This document shows, one piece after another, positions 27 to 18,283 of a DNA stretch of 21,193 nt (position 1 is the stretch's first letter; each line of letters starts with the position of its first letter). Below the pieces are notes generated by a model. It was not told where the DNA came from. It saw nothing but the letters and a program-made list of their open reading frames with translations, and searched no databases. Source of the stretch: a virus; IMG/VR virus record IMGVR_UViG_3300047557_003611, positions 1 through 21,193 of that record. One strand, 5' to 3'. The position numbers and the translations under genes were made by a program.

Positions 27-52
27 GTGGGGACATTAATTAGTGTCCCCAC
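27..52. promoter_or_regulatory. Perfect inverted repeat abutting the lysozyme start codon
   Basis: GTGGGGACA (27-35) and TGTCCCCAC (44-52) pair perfectly around an 8-nt loop. The ATG of the lysozyme gene begins at the next base, so the hairpin lies where a ribosome-binding site would be. No T-run follows on either strand, so it is a poor intrinsic terminator. It could be an operator or a translation-controlling hairpin; the role is inferred. Confidence 0.6.
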
Positions 53-718
53 ATGAAAAACAATAAGCAAGCAATTCAGCTTATTTGTAAATATGAGGGG
101 TACAGCGAATCTGCATACCCGGATCCAGAAACTGGTGGCGCTCCATATACGATCGGGTATGGCACCCAGGTTTATCCGGATGGTGTCCCTGTGTGCGCAG
201 GACAAAAATGCACAAAGCAAAAAGCCTTGCAGTATTTAGCACACGAAGTTGAAAGCATTGATAAAAAGCTGGATACAATTAATTTGATCCTGGATGCTTC
301 CATGCGTGAAGCTCTTATTTCTTTTATTCATTCCATTGGTTGGCAGTCTTTTTTATACAGCGAATTAATTGATTGCATTGCTAATGAAAATTGGTATGGT
401 GTTGCAGCAGAGATTTCTCGCTGGATCTTTGATGAAAACTATCGCGTTATTGGAAGTTTGATTGATCGCCGCAGAGAAGAAATAAAGCTTTTTCTTTTAG
501 ATGTAAATAGTTGCCCATGGAGTTCCACAGAAGTTCTCCTTAAAGCGTTCCGAGATTACACTGCTGCCCCGCACCAAGTACAGGCAATTAGACACCTGGA
601 GGAAACCATCAATCCTTACGTCTTAGCTGAATTTGCCAATAACTACAGCCTGCAAGAAGATCCCTGGGAATTAACCGAAGCTGAAGAAAAAGCTGTATTC
701 CCTGAAGACTGGGAGTAG
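53..718 (+). CDS. Phage lysozyme / endolysin, GH24 (T4 lysozyme-like)
   Basis: This is probably a muramidase that cuts the host peptidoglycan glycan chain at lysis. The N-terminal motif has the GH24 arrangement Glu15 (in KYEGY), Asp24 (YPDPETGG) and Thr33 (PYTIGYGT), matching the Glu-Asp-Thr triad of T4 lysozyme with a short insertion between Asp and Thr. The GH24 domain covers about residues 1-150. The remaining 70 residues are acidic and unrecognised. There is no signal peptide or membrane anchor, so it would need a holin to reach the wall. The ATG at 53 is needed to keep the start of the domain, yet a 26-nt hairpin sits directly before it and no Shine-Dalgarno is visible. It is followed by the NblA-like gene on the same strand. 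Confidence 0.85.
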   Translation: MKNNKQAIQLICKYEGYSESAYPDPETGGAPYTIGYGTQVYPDGVPVCAGQKCTKQKALQYLAHEVESIDKKLDTINLILDASMREALISFIHSIGWQSFLYSELIDCIANENWYGVAAEISRWIFDENYRVIGSLIDRRREEIKLFLLDVNSCPWSSTEVLLKAFRDYTAAPHQVQAIRHLEETINPYVLAEFANNYSLQEDPWELTEAEEKAVFPEDWE

Positions 719-747
719 AATAAAATCACCAAAGATTGGTCATTGTG

Positions 748-1035
748 ATGGAGAGGTCTGTTACGCCCAAGGAATTTGAGCTTCCATTGGAGCTTCAGTT
801 CTCAATGCGTAAAGCAGAACTCCAAGCCCAAGAAATGACTTGGGAAGAGCTGCATGCCGCATTGCTCAATCTTTATTACCAGCGGATGATGGAATGGCAG
901 GCCGTAAAGGAAATCCTGGCGGACGAAAACATTCAATTAGATTTTGATGTACCAACTGATTTAGAACTAGCAGAACTCGCCGCCGCCTGCATGGCAGACG
1001 ACGACGAAGATGATGACGAATTACAACCGTTTTAG
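748..1035 (+). CDS. NblA-like phycobilisome degradation protein (probable)
   Basis: A 95-residue protein from ATG 748; an in-frame TTG at 736 would add four residues. Residues 12-56 align without gaps to the NblA/Ycf18 pattern: LPLELQFSMR, then an xQAQEM element, then LLNLYYQRMM and a VKEIL helix, comparable to cyanobacterial NblA (LSLEQQFSIR...QVQNM...LVKLYEQM). NblA proteins are small helical adaptors that deliver phycobiliproteins to the Clp protease. A phage copy is known in the Microcystis phage Ma-LMM01. This copy is longer than usual NblA (about 60 aa), with an acidic tail (ADDDEDDDEL) after residue 82. The family call is from memory of the pattern, not a search. Its stop codon overlaps that of the opposing DUF3310 gene. 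Confidence 0.6.
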   Translation: MERSVTPKEFELPLELQFSMRKAELQAQEMTWEELHAALLNLYYQRMMEWQAVKEILADENIQLDFDVPTDLELAELAAACMADDDEDDDELQPF

Positions 1036-5031: not shown

Positions 5032-7308
5032 GTGGCTAATAGGCGGATCACCGAGTTACCTGCAATTTCGGCGTCAAGCATTAATGACGACGATCTTTTA
5101 ATGGTCGTTGACGTTGCGGAGGTTGATCCTGGTTTAAAGAATAAAAAACTTACTTTTATTGATACTCGGCAATATTTAAATACTTATTACCTTCAATTAA
5201 GTGGAGGAACCATTGCCGGTTCGCTAACAATTGCGAACGACCTGGTTGTTAGCGGTAACTACACGCAAACAAATTTAACGGTAACCGGTAGTGGTTTCTT
5301 TGGCCAGATTTTAGTAACCGGAAATTTACAAACGTCAGGTACTATTTCTGGCGCTGTAATTACCGGTGATTCAATTCAAGGTTTAAATATTAATGCAACC
5401 ACTGGTAACTTTACTAATTTTATTGTCGGCACTCAAACTGCCGGTACAGGTAATTTTACCCGGGTTAGCGGTACAACTATTACAGGAAATACTGTAACTA
5501 TTGGCACCGGTACTGCACTGAGTTTTAGTGGCACAAGCGGTAATTTCAGTTCTTTATCCGGCACCAATGTCACAGGTGTAACCATTGTCGGCACAACTCA
5601 AATTTCTGGTGCAATTATTAGTGGTGATGCCGGAAGATTTGCAAACATTACTGGCGTCTCTGGTGTCTTTACCACCAGGCTTTCAGGTTTAACTATTACC
5701 GGCGCCACTGGTTTATTTGCAACATTAACGGGTGTTTCCGGAACTTTTACAAACGTTTCAGGCAACACCGTAACTGGAGCAACTGGTTTATTTAGTCAAA
5801 TCACAGGTGGTTCTGGAACGTTTACACGGGTTTCTGGTACCACAATTACGGGTGCAACCGGTTTATTTACAAACATTACCGGTAGCCTGGGCACTTTTAC
5901 CAACCAAATTTCCGGTGCAACAATTACCGGAAATAATGGTCAGTTTTCAAATATTACCGGCGTTTCTGGTGTCTTTACGACACAGATTTCCGGCACGACA
6001 ATCACTGGCGCAACGGGCCTGTTCAGTCAAATTACAGGAGGCTCTGGGACATTCACTCGAATTTCAGGTACAACGGTAACTGGAGCAACTGGTTTATTTA
6101 GCCAGATAACAGCTTTATCTGGTACATTTACAAACTCAATTAGCATTCCGTCTATTGCTACTACAGGCAATATTACAGCGCAAGGCGATTTAATCATTAG
6201 TGGCAACGGAACAATTTCTTCCGGTTTTGTTGTAAGCGGAAGAATTTCTGGCGGAACGGTTACTGGTGTTACAGGTGCATTTGGTGAGCTAACCGCAAAC
6301 GAAATCTGGGGATTAACACAGATTTCCGGTCAAACAATTACTGGTGTCTCTGGTAATTTTACAAGATTAAACGGTGTCACTGGGGTTTTTACTAGTTCTT
6401 TAAGCGGTGCAACAATTACAGGTAATCGTGTTAATGGAACCAGCGGCACATTTGTCAGCGGTATCTTTACGGGCATTTCTGGAAATATTGTCACTGGTAA
6501 TACTGGTTTATTTGCAAACTTAACTGGTGTATCAGGTGTTTTTACCACTGAGCTTTCCGGATTATTTATTACAGGAAATACAGGCTCTTTTGGCACACTA
6601 ACTGGTGTAACTGGCGTATTTACCAGTTCTTTATCTGGTGCCACAATTACTGGCAATACCGGTTTATTTGAGCAATTAACAGGTGTTTCTGGAGCATTTA
6701 CAACCGTTTCTGGATCTACCGTAACAGGTACATCCGGCGAGTTTTCAAATCTTACTAGTGTTAGTGGTACTTTCACCACGCGTATTTCTGGTAACACAAT
6801 CACTGGAAACAATGCATCGTTTACAAACGTTACTGGTGTTTCCGGCATCTTCACATCGCAACTTTCTGGCGATACCGTTGTAGGCGAGTCTGCAACATTT
6901 GATTACGTCACTGGTAATACTCGAATTGAAAGCCCACGCATTTCAGGCACAACAATTGTTGGTGCAACAGGTCAAATTAATTTTGTTAGTGGCGCAACTG
7001 GTATTTTTACCAATAATATTTCTGGCACTTACATCACTGGCACTACAATTGAAGCGGTAACAGTTAATGCAACAACAGGTAATTTTACCGTTGCCAACTT
7101 TGTTGAAACAACCACTGGTGCAATTATTGTCAGTGGCTATGGTTTCTTTGGCGGAACACTTCAAGGTTTAATTATTCAGAGCAAGGCTGTTATTACAAGT
7201 AGTGTTGTGTTAAGCGGTGGTTACAATGGTATGTCAGCAGGACCCGTTGAAATTGCAACAGGAATTGTTGTTACAGTTCCCAGTGGTTCTTACTGGCGTA
7301 TTGTTTAA
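5032..7308 (+). CDS. Repetitive phage tail fibre protein
   Basis: Starts at GTG 5032. The first 50 residues (RITELPAISASSINDDDLLM, then VDVAE) are the common N-terminal module of phage tail fibres, probably the part that attaches to the tail. Residues about 191-662 hold roughly sixteen units of 25-26 residues of the form SG-TITG-TGLF--ITG-SGTFT, rich in Gly, Thr and Ser, expected to form a trimeric beta-helical shaft. A non-repeat interruption lies near residues 366-430. The C-terminus (MSAGPVEIATGIVVTVPSGS) resembles the end cap of other phage fibres. No chaperone or cleavage site is visible. It probably contacts the host surface together with the propeller proteins downstream. The long minus-strand ORF inside it is a repeat artefact. 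Confidence 0.88.
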   Translation: MANRRITELPAISASSINDDDLLMVVDVAEVDPGLKNKKLTFIDTRQYLNTYYLQLSGGTIAGSLTIANDLVVSGNYTQTNLTVTGSGFFGQILVTGNLQTSGTISGAVITGDSIQGLNINATTGNFTNFIVGTQTAGTGNFTRVSGTTITGNTVTIGTGTALSFSGTSGNFSSLSGTNVTGVTIVGTTQISGAIISGDAGRFANITGVSGVFTTRLSGLTITGATGLFATLTGVSGTFTNVSGNTVTGATGLFSQITGGSGTFTRVSGTTITGATGLFTNITGSLGTFTNQISGATITGNNGQFSNITGVSGVFTTQISGTTITGATGLFSQITGGSGTFTRISGTTVTGATGLFSQITALSGTFTNSISIPSIATTGNITAQGDLIISGNGTISSGFVVSGRISGGTVTGVTGAFGELTANEIWGLTQISGQTITGVSGNFTRLNGVTGVFTSSLSGATITGNRVNGTSGTFVSGIFTGISGNIVTGNTGLFANLTGVSGVFTTELSGLFITGNTGSFGTLTGVTGVFTSSLSGATITGNTGLFEQLTGVSGAFTTVSGSTVTGTSGEFSNLTSVSGTFTTRISGNTITGNNASFTNVTGVSGIFTSQLSGDTVVGESATFDYVTGNTRIESPRISGTTIVGATGQINFVSGATGIFTNNISGTYITGTTIEAVTVNATTGNFTVANFVETTTGAIIVSGYGFFGGTLQGLIIQSKAVITSSVVLSGGYNGMSAGPVEIATGIVVTVPSGSYWRIV
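5602..7017 (+). repeat. About sixteen 25-26-codon repeats in the tail fibre
   Basis: Each unit encodes (I/V/L)SG-x-T(I/V)TG-xTGLFxxxTGxSGxFT. The units are diverged at DNA level (synonymous differences are plentiful), unlike the propeller repeats downstream, so this array looks older or more constrained. A break between units 7 and 8 (about 6127-6320) contains non-canonical sequence. Confidence 0.8.
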
Positions 7309-7333
7309 GTTAGACTAGAAAATAAAAAATACC

Positions 7334-7678
7334 ATGCCATACGGAACAGTAAAAGCAGACACAATTGCATATACAACTATTACCGGAGAGGCTACGGTAT
7401 CCGTTTCTGGTATTTATAGTGCTGCAAGCACAGTCAGTGTATTTGATCCTGTAACAAAAAATATTTCAACGACTGGCGTTATTTCAGGCAACACTTACAA
7501 AGTTAGTGGCAACGTAACAGTCATTAGCGGATCGGGTGACATCCGCCCTTACGGTCTTTATTCTTTTCCTGCAGCCACTGGTGTTTCTGGTCAGTTTTTA
7601 AGTACCAATGCAAACGGAACAACGAGCTGGGTTACGTTAAATCCAATTACTATTGCAAAGACAATTGCTTTGAATTAA
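7334..7678 (+). CDS. Small virion-like protein, paralog of the next gene
   Basis: A 114-aa Gly/Ser/Thr-rich beta protein. It shares with the next gene the layout DPxTxNI(S/T)TTG(V/A)ISG, then K-SGNVTVI, then G-(I/V)xPYGLYxxP, showing a tandem duplication. The segment FLSTNANGTTSW resembles phrases found in phage tail-fibre tips. No SD is visible before ATG 7334. Probably a tail-fibre accessory or baseplate-associated component; function inferred from position between the fibre and other structural genes. Confidence 0.75.
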   Translation: MPYGTVKADTIAYTTITGEATVSVSGIYSAASTVSVFDPVTKNISTTGVISGNTYKVSGNVTVISGSGDIRPYGLYSFPAATGVSGQFLSTNANGTTSWVTLNPITIAKTIALN

Positions 7679-7679
7679 T

Positions 7680-8027
7680 ATGACGCTGCTAAAAATTGAT
7701 AATATTATTTTTACTGGTGCAACATCCGATGTAACTTTAGAGCTATCGGACATTGCAAGTAGTGGTTCTTACGTTGCTGCAACGGGTCTTATTGATCCAG
7801 CAACAAATAACATCACAACAACAGGGGCAATTTCTGGTGGTATTTTTAAAACCAGTGGGAATGTAACTGTGATTGATGCACAGGGAGGTGTTAGTCCTTA
7901 CGGTTTATATTTTTTACCATCTGGCAACTTGTGGAGCGTGGCTTCAATTGGATATAACGAAAATAATCAATTGACAATCGCTACAATTACAAACACCGCA
8001 TTATCAATTGCACTAGGTAAGTGCTAA
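7680..8027 (+). CDS. Small virion-like protein, paralog of the preceding gene
   Basis: A 115-aa protein starting at ATG 7680, one base after the preceding stop, so translation is probably coupled. It shares the DPATNNITTTGAISG, FKTSGNVTVI and PYGLYFLPSG blocks with the gene before it, but its N-terminus (LKIDNIIFTGATSDVTLELS) and C-terminus differ. Likely a structural protein of the same type; no enzymatic motif is present. Confidence 0.75.
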   Translation: MTLLKIDNIIFTGATSDVTLELSDIASSGSYVAATGLIDPATNNITTTGAISGGIFKTSGNVTVIDAQGGVSPYGLYFLPSGNLWSVASIGYNENNQLTIATITNTALSIALGKC

Positions 8028-8052
8028 TATAAGAAAAAACAGAACGTTAACA

Positions 8053-8388
8053 ATGCCAGAAACGTTTACCAATAGTGGTGTTCAGTTGACGACAACTGGA
8101 ATCACAGATATTTATCAAGCCCCAACAAGTTCAGGCGCTCGTGCCGTTGTTATTTCCTCTTTGGCGGCTAATGTAACTGGCACTGTTTCTGTTCAGTACA
8201 GTGTCGATTTAACAAATAGTTCCAACACATTAGTTGCAACAGTTGCCAAGAATATTTCGGTGCCAGCTGGCGCAACACTGGAATTAATTCCAAACAAGAT
8301 TGTTTTAACATCTGGTCAAAAACTACGTGCTACGGCTGGTGCTGCAAGCGGCATCAACGTAGTGACTTCCGTTCTTGAGATCACCTGA
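8053..8388 (+). CDS. Small phage structural protein (beta-sandwich-like)
   Basis: A 111-aa beta-rich protein: PETFTNSGVQLTTTGITDIY, then ARAVVISSLAANVTGTVSV, and a C-terminal ISVPAGATLELIPNKIVL and TSVLEIT. This pattern (alternating strands, a Pro-Ala-Gly turn, a closing LEIT strand) is familiar from small tail-associated proteins of cyanophage-like genomes, though I cannot name the family. It lies in the structural operon just before the propeller genes. Confidence 0.75.
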   Translation: MPETFTNSGVQLTTTGITDIYQAPTSSGARAVVISSLAANVTGTVSVQYSVDLTNSSNTLVATVAKNISVPAGATLELIPNKIVLTSGQKLRATAGAASGINVVTSVLEIT

Positions 8389-8393
8389 TTGCC

Positions 8394-10070
8394 ATGGCAT
8401 TAGAGACGTTTGAAGCTGGCTATGCCGGTGCTAACCCCCCGCGTTCTGGCACGCAATGGCAGGGGGTGTGGCGTCTCATGCAACAGGTAGATCGTATTAT
8501 TGACGAGAGCTGGCCACAGCCATGGTCGCTTGCTGGTACAAGGACAAAAAACGGATTTTTTTCAACAGGAACTGAACTAACACCAACAGGAATTTTTTTT
8601 AAACCTGACGGAACAAAATTTTATCTTACCGGACAAGCACTTGATTTAGTTCAAGAATATACTTGTGTTAAACCATGGGATATAAATACAGCATTTTTAA
8701 CGGGTTCGTTTAGTATTGCTGCACAAACAAGTACAGTAACAGCTTTGTTTTTTAAAGATGATGGAACTAAATTTTATGTGACAGGTGGTACTTCTGTACA
8801 TGAATACACGTTAAGCACATCGTGGAACATTAACACTGCTGTGTTTAACTTGTCTTTTAGTAATTCAGGACAAGATAGTTCTGTTTTTGGTTTTTATTTT
8901 AAACCTGATGGAACTAAATTTTATTTAGCGGGAGCCGGAAATGACAGAATATATCAGTACTCATGTGCTACCGCTTGGAATCTGGGCACGGCTTCCTATG
9001 ATAATGTGTCTTTTTCTGTAGCAGCTCAAGACGGAACACCAACAGGTGTTTGGTTTAAGCCTGATGGAACTAAATTTTATCTTACCGGACAAATTAATGA
9101 TTCTATTTATGAATATGATTGTTCTACTCCATGGGATATTTCAACGGCTTCCTATACTGTGGGAAATTTTTTAAACGTAGGAAATATTGTTGGCGGTAGT
9201 CCCAGGCAAATATATTTTAAAGATGACGGCACTACATTTTATTGCCTTGATAGTACTAGGACTAATTTAGTCGAACTTTATTGCCGTACTCCATGGCAAA
9301 TTAATACGGGATATACGTATATTTTTAGTACAGGCTCGCAAGATTCACTTGGCAATGATATATTTTTTAGGTCAGACGGAACAACTTTTTATCTTATTGG
9401 TGCCACAAGCGATACAGTGTATCAATACACATGCTCTACGGCCTGGGACCTAAGTACAGCAGCATACACTTCAAAATCATTTAGTGTTACAACGCAAGAA
9501 ACAACTCCGGCGGGATTATTTTTTAAAGATGACGGAACCAGGTTTTATGTTGTAGGGTCCACAAACGACACAGTATATCAATATTCATGCTCTACCGCAT
9601 GGGATGTAAGTACTGCATCATATGACAGTAAATCATTCAGTGTTACAACGCAAGAAAGCGCTCCAAATGGTCTATGTTTCAAAAATGACGGGACTAAATT
9701 TTATATTATAGGAACTGGAAGTGACGCGGTATATCAATACTCTTGCTCTACGGCATGGGACATAAGTACTGCTTTTTATGACTTTAAATCATTTAGTGTA
9801 TTTAACCAGGAGAACGCTCCTTTGGGGATTACTTTTAAAACGGATGGAACTGAATTTTATATTGTAGGACAAACAAATGACACGGTATATCAATACAGAT
9901 GCTTAACTGCCTGGGATATTTCAACTGCGTATTACACAGGCGTTTCTTTTAATATGTCAGCGTTAGACAATGATCCCAGGGGTTTATTTTTTAACCCGGA
10001 TGGACAAACGGTATATCTATTTGGAACTCAAAAAGATTTGATTTATCAGTGTCCTCTTTTATTAGAATAG
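8394..10070 (+). CDS. Beta-propeller-like repeat protein, 10 blade equivalents
   Basis: 558 residues. The first 40 residues are unique and precede the repeats. Then come nine full units of about 50-52 residues, of the form Q(E/D)xxPxGLFFKxDGTKFYxxGxTNDxVYQY, then xCSTAWDxSTAxY. A half unit at each end (PWSLAGTRTKNGFF at the start; DPRGLFFNPDGQTVYLFG at the end) would close a ring in the way WD-type propellers do, giving ten DGT-type and ten W-type motifs. Each canonical blade carries one Cys at the same position. Blades 1-5 are diverged, while blades 6-9 approach the consensus of the next gene. Probably a surface or tail protein that binds host glycans or receptors; binding is inferred. Confidence 0.75.
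   Translation: MALETFEAGYAGANPPRSGTQWQGVWRLMQQVDRIIDESWPQPWSLAGTRTKNGFFSTGTELTPTGIFFKPDGTKFYLTGQALDLVQEYTCVKPWDINTAFLTGSFSIAAQTSTVTALFFKDDGTKFYVTGGTSVHEYTLSTSWNINTAVFNLSFSNSGQDSSVFGFYFKPDGTKFYLAGAGNDRIYQYSCATAWNLGTASYDNVSFSVAAQDGTPTGVWFKPDGTKFYLTGQINDSIYEYDCSTPWDISTASYTVGNFLNVGNIVGGSPRQIYFKDDGTTFYCLDSTRTNLVELYCRTPWQINTGYTYIFSTGSQDSLGNDIFFRSDGTTFYLIGATSDTVYQYTCSTAWDLSTAAYTSKSFSVTTQETTPAGLFFKDDGTRFYVVGSTNDTVYQYSCSTAWDVSTASYDSKSFSVTTQESAPNGLCFKNDGTKFYIIGTGSDAVYQYSCSTAWDISTAFYDFKSFSVFNQENAPLGITFKTDGTEFYIVGQTNDTVYQYRCLTAWDISTAYYTGVSFNMSALDNDPRGLFFNPDGQTVYLFGTQKDLIYQCPLLLE
8571..10067 (+). repeat. Tandem blade repeats in the first propeller gene
   Basis: Nine full units of about 150-160 bp and one partial unit encode the DGTKFY / YQYSCSTAWD blade. 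The 5' units are diverged; the 3' units (from about 9330) resemble those of the following gene closely at DNA level. Confidence 0.8.
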
Positions 10071-10086
10071 AAAAAAAGTTAAAGAC

Positions 10087-12576
10087 ATGAAAGGTAATCT
10101 AATTGGCGCAAAACCTGGCTACGGTTCTTTGCCCCAAGGGCGCCGTGGTGTTTGGGAAATTTATGATCAAGAACAATTTGACCGTAATGGTTTATGGGCC
10201 GGAACACCTTGGGATGTAGATAAAGGGTTTTATACAGATAAAAAATGGACGGTTGGTATTGGTGAGACATCGCCTCAAGATGTAGCTTTTAAGTCTGACG
10301 GAACCAAATTTTATATTATTGGAACTACAAACGACACAGTGTATCAATATTCCTGTTCTACCGCATGGGATGTAAATACTGCCTTCTATGACAATAAATT
10401 ATTTAGTGTTGCAACGCAAGAAAACAGTCCAACAGGATTATTTTTTAAAAATGATGGAACCAAATTTTATGTTATTGGAACTACAAACGACACAGTGTAT
10501 CAATATTCTTGTTCTACAGCATGGGACATAAGTACTGCATCATATGACAGTAAGTCATTTAGTGTTGCAACGCAAGAAAATGGTCCACAAGCATTATTTT
10601 TTAAAAATGATGGCACTAAATTTTATATTATTGGAACTACGAACGACACAGTGTATCAATATTCATGCTCTACCGCATGGGATGTAAGTACTGCATCATA
10701 TGACAGTAAGTCATTTAGTGTTACGACGCAAGAAAATGCTCCAACAGGATTATTTTTTAAAAATGATGGCACTATATTTTATATTGTAGGAATTACAAAC
10801 GATACTATTTATCAATACTCATGCTCTACGGCATGGGATATAAGTACTGCTTCTTACGCCAGTAAACTGTGTAGATTTACTTTTGAAGGATCACCTACCG
10901 GAATTGCTTTTAAAGATGATGGTACAAAGTTATATGCAATTGGAAGTGCAAATACAAGACTATTTGAATTTAATTTATCTGTTGCTTGGGATGTAAGCAC
11001 AAATAACACAGCAGACGGTGGATTTTTTATTGGCACGCAGGAAACGGATGCTGCTGATTTATTTTTTAAATCTGACGGAACTAAATTTTACATTATAGGA
11101 ACTACGAACGACACAATATATCAATATTTATGCTCTACCGCATGGGATGTAAGCACTGCCTCCTATGACAGTAAATCATTCAGTGTTACGACGCAAGAAA
11201 ATGCTCCACAAGCATTATTTTTTAAAAATGATGGCACTAAATTTTATATTATTGGAACTACGAACGACACAATATATCAATATTCATGCTCTACCGCATG
11301 GGATGTAAGTACTGCATCCTATGACAGTAAATCATTCAGTGTTACGACGCAAGAAAATGCTCCACAAGCATTATTTTTTAAAAATGATGGCACTAAATTT
11401 TATATTATTGGAACTACGAACGACACAATATATCAATATTCATGCTCTACCGCATGGGATGTAAGTACTGCATCCTATGACAGTAAATCATTTAGTGTTA
11501 CAACGCAAGAAAATGCTCCAACTGGATTATTTTTTAAAGCCGACGGAACCAAATTTTATATTATTGGAGGTACAAACGACACAGTATATCAATATTCATG
11601 CTCTACCGCATGGGATGTAAGTACTGCATCGTATGACAATAAATCATTTAGTGTTACGACGCAAGAAAATGCTCCACGTTCAATAGTATTTAAATCTGAC
11701 GGAACTAAATTTTATACTGTAGGAACTGCAAATGATACCGTTTATCAATACGATTTACCTCTTGCATGGGATGTTGTTAATGCAGGATTTACCGCTAAAA
11801 ATGTAAATATTCAAATGCAAGATACAGCACCTCAGGATATAACTTTTAAACCAGATGGAACTCGTTTTTATGTAGCTGGAAATACAACAGATTCAATATA
11901 TCAATATGATTGTAGTAATCCCTGGGACATTGCAACAGCTACATTTAACAGGGTGGCCAGCGGTGCTTTTGCACGTGCACGGGTTAGCTTTCAAGATACA
12001 ACACCAGTTGGAATAGTGTTTAAAGATGATGGAACTAAATTCTATATTATTGGACAAACAAATGATACCATTTATCAATACTCATGTTCTACTGCATGGG
12101 ATGTAAGCACTGCATCATATGACAGTAAATCATTCAGTGTTACGACACAAGAAAACACTCCAACAGGATTATTTTTTAAACCTGATGGAACTAAATTTTA
12201 TGTTATTGGACAAATAAACGACACAGTATATCAATATTCATGCTCCACTGCATGGGATGTAAGTACAGCATCATACGACAGTAAATCATTTAGTGTTGCA
12301 ACACAAGAGACTACTCCACAAGGATTATTTTTTAAAGAGGATGGTACTAAGTTGTATGTGGCAGGAATTTCAAGTGACATTATACATCAATATTCTTGCT
12401 CTACGCCATGGGATATAGGCACTGCATCATATGAAAATAAATTTTTAAACGTAGTTGCGCAAACAACAGATAGCAGGGGCGTATGCCTTGGTTATTACGG
12501 AAGCATTTTATACATTATTGATGGCACTGCTTCTGCAACAGTTGTTCCGGGTGTTTATCAGTATTATCTGTCATAA
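10087..12576 (+). CDS. Giant beta-propeller-like repeat protein, 15 blade equivalents
   Basis: 829 residues, 16 nt after the paralogous gene. A short N-terminal leader (MKGNLIGAKPGYGSLPQGRR) precedes a half blade (TPWDVDKGFYTDKKW). Fourteen full 52-residue blades (about residues 58-790) follow, and a terminal half blade (about 791-829) ends the protein, again allowing ring closure. The consensus blade is FFKNDGTKFYIIGTTNDT, then VYQYSCSTAWDVSTASYDS, then KSFSVTTQENAP. Blades 7 and 8 are identical even at DNA level; blades 5, 10 and 11 are the most diverged. There is no signal peptide or catalytic motif. The layout (unique leader, long repeat, tail-gene context) suits a receptor-binding tail appendage or virion decoration; a secreted binding protein is a lesser alternative. 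Confidence 0.75.
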   Translation: MKGNLIGAKPGYGSLPQGRRGVWEIYDQEQFDRNGLWAGTPWDVDKGFYTDKKWTVGIGETSPQDVAFKSDGTKFYIIGTTNDTVYQYSCSTAWDVNTAFYDNKLFSVATQENSPTGLFFKNDGTKFYVIGTTNDTVYQYSCSTAWDISTASYDSKSFSVATQENGPQALFFKNDGTKFYIIGTTNDTVYQYSCSTAWDVSTASYDSKSFSVTTQENAPTGLFFKNDGTIFYIVGITNDTIYQYSCSTAWDISTASYASKLCRFTFEGSPTGIAFKDDGTKLYAIGSANTRLFEFNLSVAWDVSTNNTADGGFFIGTQETDAADLFFKSDGTKFYIIGTTNDTIYQYLCSTAWDVSTASYDSKSFSVTTQENAPQALFFKNDGTKFYIIGTTNDTIYQYSCSTAWDVSTASYDSKSFSVTTQENAPQALFFKNDGTKFYIIGTTNDTIYQYSCSTAWDVSTASYDSKSFSVTTQENAPTGLFFKADGTKFYIIGGTNDTVYQYSCSTAWDVSTASYDNKSFSVTTQENAPRSIVFKSDGTKFYTVGTANDTVYQYDLPLAWDVVNAGFTAKNVNIQMQDTAPQDITFKPDGTRFYVAGNTTDSIYQYDCSNPWDIATATFNRVASGAFARARVSFQDTTPVGIVFKDDGTKFYIIGQTNDTIYQYSCSTAWDVSTASYDSKSFSVTTQENTPTGLFFKPDGTKFYVIGQINDTVYQYSCSTAWDVSTASYDSKSFSVATQETTPQGLFFKEDGTKLYVAGISSDIIHQYSCSTPWDIGTASYENKFLNVVAQTTDSRGVCLGYYGSILYIIDGTASATVVPGVYQYYLS
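10258..12573 (+). repeat. Tandem 156-bp blade repeats in the second propeller gene
   Basis: Fourteen full units, mostly exactly 52 codons (156 bp), plus a partial one. The units between about 10390 and 10850 and between 11100 and 11690 are near-identical at DNA level, while the interrupting units (about 10850-11040 and 11690-12000) are diverged. Confidence 0.85.
11161..11472 (+). repeat. Exact tandem duplication of a 156-bp unit
   Basis: Positions 11161-11316 and 11317-11472 are identical by direct base comparison, and identity continues for about 20 nt into the next unit. With no synonymous change, this is a very recent duplication or gene-conversion event, or possibly an assembly effect in a repeat. 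Confidence 0.9.
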
Positions 12577-12593: not shown

Positions 12594-13613
12594 ATGTCTA
12601 TTAAATTACAAGATGCTTTTGTTTATTTTAAAAATTTAAAACATCAGTTAGATGCTGTTGAATGGCTGGATTCAACTTTGACAAAAGAACAACGAGAGGG
12701 ATTTGCAGAACGTTATCGTAACGCGCCTGAACCAATTGATGAATTTTTAAATACATGGGATGGTGTTTTAAACGCAGCTAAAAAAGCAGGGGCTAAATTT
12801 CCAGAGGTTGTAGCTGCGCAGTGGGCACTTGAAAGCTCATGGGGCAAGGCAACTTCTGGCACACATAATTACTTTGGATTAAAGGGAAGCGGTACCACTG
12901 TAAATACCAAAGAATTTATTAATGGTAAATGGGTAACAATTAAAGCTGGTTTTATTGATTTTCCTGATTTATATACTTGTGTTTGTTATCTTGTTGATCG
13001 CTGGTATCGAGACTTTGGTAAATACCAAGGTGTAAACAGAGCAGCTTCAAGAAACGAATGTGCGCAATTACTTGTAAAAGAAGGATATGCCACAGATCCA
13101 AATTATGCAACAAAACTAATTCAAATTATGGATCGTCAGCTTGGTACCAGTGGTAATCCACCTAGTAAACCGACTGATCCTATACAGGCTCAAACTTTTA
13201 ATCCTAAAAGTCCCTTTAGTTACAAAGTTACACCACATATTACTTATGGAGAGTTGACATTAAATCAAGAAGCTCGCAGATTTACACAGCAGCACCAATG
13301 CAATACAGCACTAGAGCTTTGCCGTTTTATTGAAAAAGCACGTACACATTTTGGCGGCAAACCAGTAATTATTACTAGTGCTTCTAGGCCCGAGCCAATT
13401 AATACTCAAGTTGGTGGAGCCAAAAATAGCGAGCATACCTACAGCGCACCAAATAAAGGCGCAATTGATTTTTATATTGAAGGAGTCAATATTTACGTTT
13501 TACAAGATTGGTGCGATAAAAATTGGCCATATTCATTAGGGTATGGCGCTCCAAAAGGGTTTGTTCACCTAGGCATGAGAGAAGGAAAACCTCGGGTCCG
13601 CTGGGATTATTAA
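12594..13613 (+). CDS. Two-domain peptidoglycan hydrolase: GH73 glucosaminidase plus M15 peptidase
   Basis: The N-terminal domain (about 50-183) matches the GH73/FlgJ glucosaminidase fold, with the probable catalytic Glu80 in AAQWALESSWGKATSG and the HNYFGLKG block. A Pro-rich linker (about 186-208) leads to an M15-type zinc D,D-peptidase domain (210-339): TSASRPEPINTQVGG, then His281 (SEHTY), Asp292 (AIDFY) and His325 (GFVHLGMR) as the likely metal ligands. The His-to-Asp spacing is longer than usual. It would cut both the glycan and the peptide parts of the wall. No signal peptide or membrane segment is present. With a separate GH24 lysozyme at 53-718, this copy, encoded beside tail genes, may be a virion-borne entry hydrolase or a second endolysin. 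A strong AGGAGG precedes ATG 12594. Confidence 0.85.
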   Translation: MSIKLQDAFVYFKNLKHQLDAVEWLDSTLTKEQREGFAERYRNAPEPIDEFLNTWDGVLNAAKKAGAKFPEVVAAQWALESSWGKATSGTHNYFGLKGSGTTVNTKEFINGKWVTIKAGFIDFPDLYTCVCYLVDRWYRDFGKYQGVNRAASRNECAQLLVKEGYATDPNYATKLIQIMDRQLGTSGNPPSKPTDPIQAQTFNPKSPFSYKVTPHITYGELTLNQEARRFTQQHQCNTALELCRFIEKARTHFGGKPVIITSASRPEPINTQVGGAKNSEHTYSAPNKGAIDFYIEGVNIYVLQDWCDKNWPYSLGYGAPKGFVHLGMREGKPRVRWDY

Positions 13614-17929: not shown

Positions 17930-18283
17930 CTATTTACTAGGCGTAACCGATCTAATTAACTCTTTTTCTTCACTGATCTGCGCTTTTAATTTTTTTGTGA
18001 GGAATTCTGCTGCTTTATGCGAATTAGTTGTATCTCCACAGGTATACAGATCGATAGCTGCATAACCAAGCTCAGGCCATGTATGGATAGAGCAGTGTGA
18101 TTCAGCCAGCAGGGCAAGAAGTGTTACACCCTGCGGCTGAAATTTTTGCCCAAATACCCGAAGAATTGTGGCATTGGACATCTGCAGTGCAGTCTCCATG
18201 AGGGACTGAAGGCCCTGGTAGTCATCCAACAACTGTTTATCACAGTCGTAGAGATCCAGAATTAAATGGCGTCCGTTGCTCAA
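17930..18283 (-). CDS. speD: S-adenosylmethionine decarboxylase proenzyme (SpeD)
   Basis: 117 aa, the normal length of bacterial class 1b SpeD. The protein opens GRHLILDLYDCD as in the family and holds the self-cleavage site LLAESHCSIHTWPELGYAAI (58-77). Ser62 should become the pyruvoyl group after cleavage between Glu61 and Ser62; His67 and Cys82 (in DLYTCGD) match the processing and catalytic residues of the Thermotoga enzyme (His68, Cys83). The product, decarboxylated AdoMet, feeds spermidine synthesis. speD is a known auxiliary gene of marine cyanophages. Translation starts at TTG 18283, overlapping the primase TGA stop in a TTGA junction, so the gene is probably coupled to the primase-helicase. 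No ATG is available before the conserved GRHL. Confidence 0.93.
   Translation of the reverse strand: MSNGRHLILDLYDCDKQLLDDYQGLQSLMETALQMSNATILRVFGQKFQPQGVTLLALLAESHCSIHTWPELGYAAIDLYTCGDTTNSHKAAEFLTKKLKAQISEEKELIRSVTPSK

Follow-up and report, generated by a model that had tools for sequence, protein, structure and literature searches.

How the number of blades is set as beta-propellers copy their blades is a standing question, and in very repetitive chains structure prediction may not reveal where the rings end. The question is raised here by a 21,193-base virus fragment (the window), in which two consecutive plus-strand open frames encode protein A (8394..10070, 558 aa), with 10 blades, and protein B (10087..12576, 829 aa), with 15. 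The best reading takes each as closed five-bladed beta-propeller rings strung in a chain, which is probably borne on the virion and would bind the host surface; this whole reading is given about three chances in four. Its architectural part, two rings in A and three in B, is very probably correct.

Blades of proteins A and B

The sequences divide into 10 blade cores of 49-54 aa in A (core-to-core distances 51, 49, 52, 54, 50, 52, 52, 52 and 52 aa) and 15 cores of 51-58 aa in B (52, 52, 52, 51, 52, 52, 52, 52, 52, 52, 58, 52, 52 and 52 aa). A sequence-only reading had reached the same numbers, at the correct coordinates, by counting DGT and W motifs. Its totals hold, partly by luck, but the motifs do not correspond to blades one by one. 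Of the 10 DGT strings in A, the one at aa 213 lies in a loop, and the final core has DGQ instead; of the 15 in B, the last, at aa 812, falls outside the cores, and the final core has YGS. Tryptophans total 14 in A and 18 in B, of which 10 and 15, read from their positions, stand at the blade position. The half-blades that the same reading placed at both ends are borne out: an N-terminal outer W-strand (strand d; W44 in A, W42 in B) precedes the first full blade, and the last blade (10 in A, 15 in B) comprises strands a, b and c only, the chain ending after strand c. The minus strand over this region holds only three short frames (60-63 aa).

That the repeats are real, and not chance, follows from Pfam SGL matches to A (2.8e-19, 70.1 bits) and B (3.9e-28, 99.1 bits) above the curated cut-off of 26.3, from a 156-base unit found by TRF in B in 13.7 copies (10296-12442), and from the near identity of B blades 7 and 8 (100% in protein, 98% in DNA). 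Protein identity among B blades 3, 7 and 8 is 96-100%, and blades 5, 10, 11 and 15 diverge from the otherwise more homogeneous set. The most divergent full blade of A is blade 5, with 32-40% identity to the other full blades, which share 40-67% among themselves. Neither A nor B shows evident similarity between blades i and i+5, which would be a sign of ring duplication; judged from sequence, their blades look to have been exchanged one by one rather than as duplicated rings.

Scores above a curated propeller cut-off and the repeated four-stranded blades of AF2 models together place both proteins among the beta-propellers. Pfam Lactonase also exceeds its cut-off in A and B, so that the two Pfam families could be taken to indicate lactonase-type enzymes. 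The best SGL and Lactonase stretches, however, span one to three blades, and the 6-phosphogluconolactonase model PRK11028 scores 39 bits in B where its cut-off is 370; in place of the seven blades of a lactonase (PF10282), the count, the relatives' spacing and the model give five per ring. An enzyme of this type is therefore highly improbable. A PHROGs search with A and B gave scattered short matches only, and an NCBIfam search gave no match near any cut-off. Within a phage collection B matches 19 records and A 11, including cultured roseophages, Lentibacter phage ICBM2 and Synechococcus phage S-SKS1; Maribacter phages are matched by B. No description of the ring family was found in searches of the open-access PMC literature, and this family, widespread in the genomes of marine phages, has no name in the family libraries searched.

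Blade numbers and ring breaks among relatives

Relatives were drawn from an IMG/VR scan with B (15 loci, a complete listing), from IMG/VR scans with A, a single-ring alignment, a B alignment and a 20-blade protein (the best 80 of each longer list), and from a scan of prokaryote genomes (51 loci). With a one-blade profile, refined on 415 diverse units, cores were counted in complete frames from 344 sources, namely the window and the loci, some of which come from the same contig. The 385 complete frames matched included 381 with at least three cores, which reduce to 268 distinct sequences in 238 clusters. Excluded were 54 incomplete frames, along with 4 complete ones that had under three cores. 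Among the matches listed, the blade number is a multiple of five in 218 of the 238 non-redundant clusters of complete relatives: 5 in 99 clusters, 10 in 86, 15 in 26, 20 in five, and 30 and 45 in one each. The strictest clustering gives 108 of 124. Equally likely remainders would lead one to expect about 48 of 238, a figure to be read with the clusters being related and hence not independent trials. Ranking by similarity to the query biases the lists towards long matches, not towards exact multiples of five. In the complete viral list, with duplicates kept, 21 complete frames have 5 blades (12 frames), 10 (six) or 15 (one), the remaining frames having 14 (L006; 15 in another count) and 8 (L011, whose frame breaks inside a gene that is whole in L009 with 10).

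The 20 clusters off the step of five, ten read by hand and ten by their spacing lists only, remain in the totals. The majority seem to reflect a weak blade that escaped the profile (L025 and L006, for instance, have 15 each in another count), a stray extra match (L191, L188, L222) or a truncated frame (L182, L216). Those left standing are L024, with eight blades, and L181, a Patescibacteria protein (5745-10301) whose six evenly spaced blades are the one clear exception. Since relatives from marine viruses and from bacteria nearly always have a multiple of five blades, these sequences suggest that the whole ring, not the blade, is the building unit of the family, the gene of which would grow and shrink by whole rings. 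The longest chain seen (L234:1729-8784) has 2351 aa and 45 blades at regular spacing.

The positions of the breaks in relatives bear on the same point. In ten-blade relatives (n = 86) the spacing from blade 5 to blade 6 falls outside 49-53 aa in 98%, against 2-9% elsewhere, and blade 5 is the lowest-scoring internal blade (median 45 bits versus 74-85; n = 64). Linkers, defined as core-to-core distances above 75 aa, occur in 52 proteins, in which 103 of 121 linker-separated runs have exactly five blades. Of 216 clusters, 215 lack strand d in the last blade, and in 155 a leading N-terminal half-blade was detected. A itself and its closest kin are among the 2% of exceptions, with a normal 5-to-6 spacing (50 aa), so the ring break in A rests on the divergence of blade 5 and on the model. 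If each protein instead formed one oversized ring, of 10 and 15 blades, the window proteins would look as they do by spacing alone, with half-blades at the chain ends only. Such rings are very improbable given the breaks at blade 5 in relatives, the free-standing five-blade proteins that make up 99 of 238 clusters, the AF2 strand pattern of A and B, and the 4-12 blades that propellers are said to have in the available text of one source (PMC6805158).

A division of B into seven and eight blades has a parallel in KAE9403162.1 from Gymnopus, a 15-blade WD40 protein that AlphaFold predicts as 7+8 according to the available text of Pereira and Lupas (2022, PMC9218822). The divergent blades of B, however, are 5, 10, 11 and 15, its model and structural match ranges give thirds, and the 15-blade relatives with linkers (L160, L150, L003, L128) break at 5 and 10, which leaves such a division with a very small probability. 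Five-bladed rings had been one option of the sequence-only reading, next to 7+8, larger rings and an open solenoid. The multiples of five in 218 of 238 clusters, the break at blade 5 in 98% of ten-blade relatives and the AF2 split at that point strongly favour it, and the relatives' counts and breaks, their five-blade runs and the models argue against the others. Two 15-blade relatives (L045:7776-10178, L079:3410-5815) have odd spacing at 5, 6 and 11 rather than at 5 and 10, a pattern that would fit one ring inserted into the first blade of another.

Seven of nine cultured or complete phage records fit fives. The count is 5+5+5 in each of the cultured roseophages CRP-13, CRP-9 and CRP-2, and 5+5 in CRP-738; ICBM2, S-SKS1 and ctPCi537 have five, the closing blades being weak (at most 2 bits) in CRP-738, S-SKS1 and ctPCi537. 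Molly_1 and S-SCSM2R have four cores each. The five blades of ICBM2 are unlikely to be an assembly artefact, since its genome is a high-coverage PacBio assembly in the available description (PMC6775973). The ring family provides a clean natural series (5, 10, 15, 20, 30 and 45 blades) with ring breaks visible in many members.

Structure prediction, which the sequence-only reading had proposed as a check, yields four-stranded propeller blades arranged 5+5 in A and 5+5+5 in B. The AF2 model of A, made with relatives (pLDDT 87.7, pTM 0.73), runs twice through strand d, four blades and strands abc. Its first ring, A1 (aa 53-296; 8550..9281), consists of a short strand d, four full blades and strands abc of blade 5, as read from AF2 secondary structure and the divergence of blade 5; ring A2 (aa 309-555; 9318..10058), read from AF2 secondary structure, repeats this order and ends with abc of blade 10. 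The model of B (pLDDT 82.5; other four models 77.5, 74.8, 69.1 and 39.3) shows d, four blades and abc three times, the strand d opening ring 2 having two residues only, and with a pTM of 0.47 it does not fix ring-to-ring geometry. Rings B1 (aa 52-297; 10240..10977), B2 (aa 310-557; 11014..11757) and B3 (aa 567-829; 11785..12573) were read from AF2 and from VIA-align matches spanning 49..297, 310..557 or 567..829. The first blade of B3 (blade 11, 58 aa) has a longer c-d loop. As a ring begins with strand d and ends with strands a-b-c, its first strand would complete its last blade (Velcro closure), and the next strand d would open the next ring. Strand order in both models and in relatives fits this predicted closure.

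Six-bladed Pizza proteins lead the VIA-align matches of B (Z 17.3-17.8, rmsd 3.3-3.4, 207-212 residues), and further rows cross several rings at rmsd 11-27. For A some rows correspond to one ring (for example 50..296 and 309..558) and several mix both, including the top row, 6f0t (Z 17.5, rmsd 3.5, 213 residues, 48..555). The BFVD model of a Lentibacter phage protein with a single ring superposes on one ring of A at 0.9 Å over 246 columns; close single-ring BFVD matches to A (ranks 2, 3, 4 and 9) extend over 246-254 columns at 0.9-2.1 Å. Foldseek against the PDB returned long multi-ring proteins first, many of them WD40/LRP, with TM-scores of about 0.2-0.4; it supports propeller character but cannot resolve blade number.

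Gene slots and association with tails

The rings would be anchored to the virion by short conserved N-terminal segments. That of A (aa 1-52; 8394..8549), with much of it below pLDDT 50, is kept in sister phages by tblastn and may serve in virion attachment; that of B (aa 1-51; 10087..10239) precedes the propeller and is likewise kept. Upstream of A lies a plus-strand gene for a 111-aa protein (8053..8388) that adjoins A in sister phages and weakly matches phrog_1276, of unknown function. A plus-strand cell-wall hydrolase gene with glucosaminidase and M15 peptidase domains (12594..13613) directly follows B. In sister phages the slot of A was recognised from the A N-terminal segment together with the small upstream gene and B downstream. 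Its occupant has 10 blades in the window, L021, L022 and L023, 20 in L154, five in L026 and L074, and eight in L024. The L026 and L154 slots are not copies, since they have diverged, to 48% and 67% identity in the A segment. L074 may be a collapsed assembly, as both its ends are common with L021, and L024 may be another, as it carries very similar blades. The slot of B holds 15 blades in every complete copy (L005, L021-L026, L154). With its series of blade numbers, and one gene slot that has 5, 10 or 20, the family makes the question of blade number testable.

Other genes of the window include a 758-aa repetitive protein with VSGTFT and TGATGLF repeats (5032-7308), fibre-like by look, for which Pfam and PHROGs searches gave no match. 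Two neighbouring small proteins (7334-7678 and 7680-8027) look paralogous and cross-match their sister-phage counterparts at about 45% identity. A short protein (17930-18283) presumably resembles S-adenosylmethionine decarboxylase. The promoter/terminator and tRNA scans contributed nothing.

The sequence-only reading had also suggested a host-binding appendage, and fusions in other phages give this indirect support, A and B themselves being putative virion proteins. Pfam scans covered 20 non-blade parts, and PHROGs scans 18 of these. A ring is fused to a baseplate wedge subunit in S-SKS1 (L004; phrog_2885, 1038 bits), to tail fibres in L160 (phrog_38058, 1.6e-40) and L130 (phrog_24456, 8.9e-34), to a T7 tail-fibre N-terminus in L163 (PF03906, 8.6e-8) and to a ConA-like lectin domain in L141 (PF13385, 4.1e-22); the non-blade parts of L109, L080, L151, L100 and L159 gave no match in these scans. 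The S-SKS1 frame (L004:4716-9431), of 1571 aa with the baseplate wedge part and one ring, has no feature in HQ633071. CRP-9 gp42 adjoins a gene annotated as a putative tail structural protein, Molly_1 gp60 is flanked on either side by a gene with a tail-protein annotation, and the L022 contig carries a major head protein and a virion structural protein upstream.

The ring also occurs in bacteria. SAR11 (Pelagibacteraceae) loci L194, L196, L198, L207, L213 and L214 join a signal-like start to one five-blade ring and an autotransporter barrel, the C-terminal barrel being found in all eight tested proteins of the 681-812 aa class from six Pelagibacteraceae genomes. Because of this barrel, the SAR11 ring is probably a secreted passenger on the bacterial surface, as far as sequence can indicate.

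The fusions to tail parts, the tail and structural gene neighbours, the SAR11 surface ring and the precedent of phi11 lead us to read A and B as probably tail-linked binding arms, with two lectin-like rings in A and three in B. The rings would present repeated pockets to glycans or proteins of the host surface, and additional rings may bring avidity. Chains acting as tail or capsid spacers or decorations, without ligand binding, would account for the many near-identical interior blades, as a scaffold would have, and for the fact that no catalytic or binding motif was identified in A or B. The fusions to tail-fibre parts and to the ConA-like lectin domain (L141), and the five-bladed ring of the phi11 receptor-binding protein as given in the available text (PMC4901313), speak against this, and a spacer role is considered unlikely. 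A comparison of loop variability gave no clear binding face for the binding arms, strand a being as variable as the d-a loop, and no virion proteomics of the ring family was found in the portions of the literature available. A wider and quite doubtful idea is that a five-bladed surface ring is common to marine phages and the bacteria they infect and is copied only in whole-ring steps, reaching 45 blades in a single chain, by which phages adjust arm reach and valency, with the SAR11 autotransporter ring as a possible target of the phage rings or their mimic.

Comparison with known systems

The best solved sequence relative, found with a single-ring profile, is PDB 1l0q (E 5.5e-17), the YVTN propeller of an archaeal surface-layer protein, a ring that we take to have seven blades against five per ring in A and B. 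Five-bladed lectins of the tachylectin-2 type bind sugar in each blade. Neither tachylectin-2 nor phi11 Gp45 is among the 13 PDB sequences matched, and absence from that list excludes nothing in the case of tachylectin-2. A cultured example is the hypothetical protein AYP28110 (403 aa) of Lentibacter phage vB_LenP_ICBM2, which lies among tail assembly genes and has the same blade family; it differs from A and B in its single ring with an N-terminal part of about 95 aa.

In the available text on Staphylococcus phage phi11 (PMC4901313), the host-recognition protein Gp45 likewise contains a five-bladed propeller ring, proposed as a sugar-binding platform, in which an N-terminal strand closes the last blade. 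Gp45 is there described as a trimer with one ring per chain and with stem and tower domains, whereas A and B are almost only rings: about 50 residues precede the rings, the chains end with the last ring, and neither a helical stem nor a C-terminal tower of the Gp45 type was found. Amplified propellers, chains of near-identical blades numbering up to 47 and in some cases forming several rings, have been described (Pereira and Lupas, 2022, PMC9218822). Their examples, in the available text, are of WD40 type or have an unresolved partition (7+8; 47 blades fitting mixes of 6 to 9), whereas the step in the family of A and B is nearly always five. Tandem propellers of near-identical blades are thus known already, and what appears to be new is the near-strict step of five throughout a broad family and the serial use of such rings in phages.
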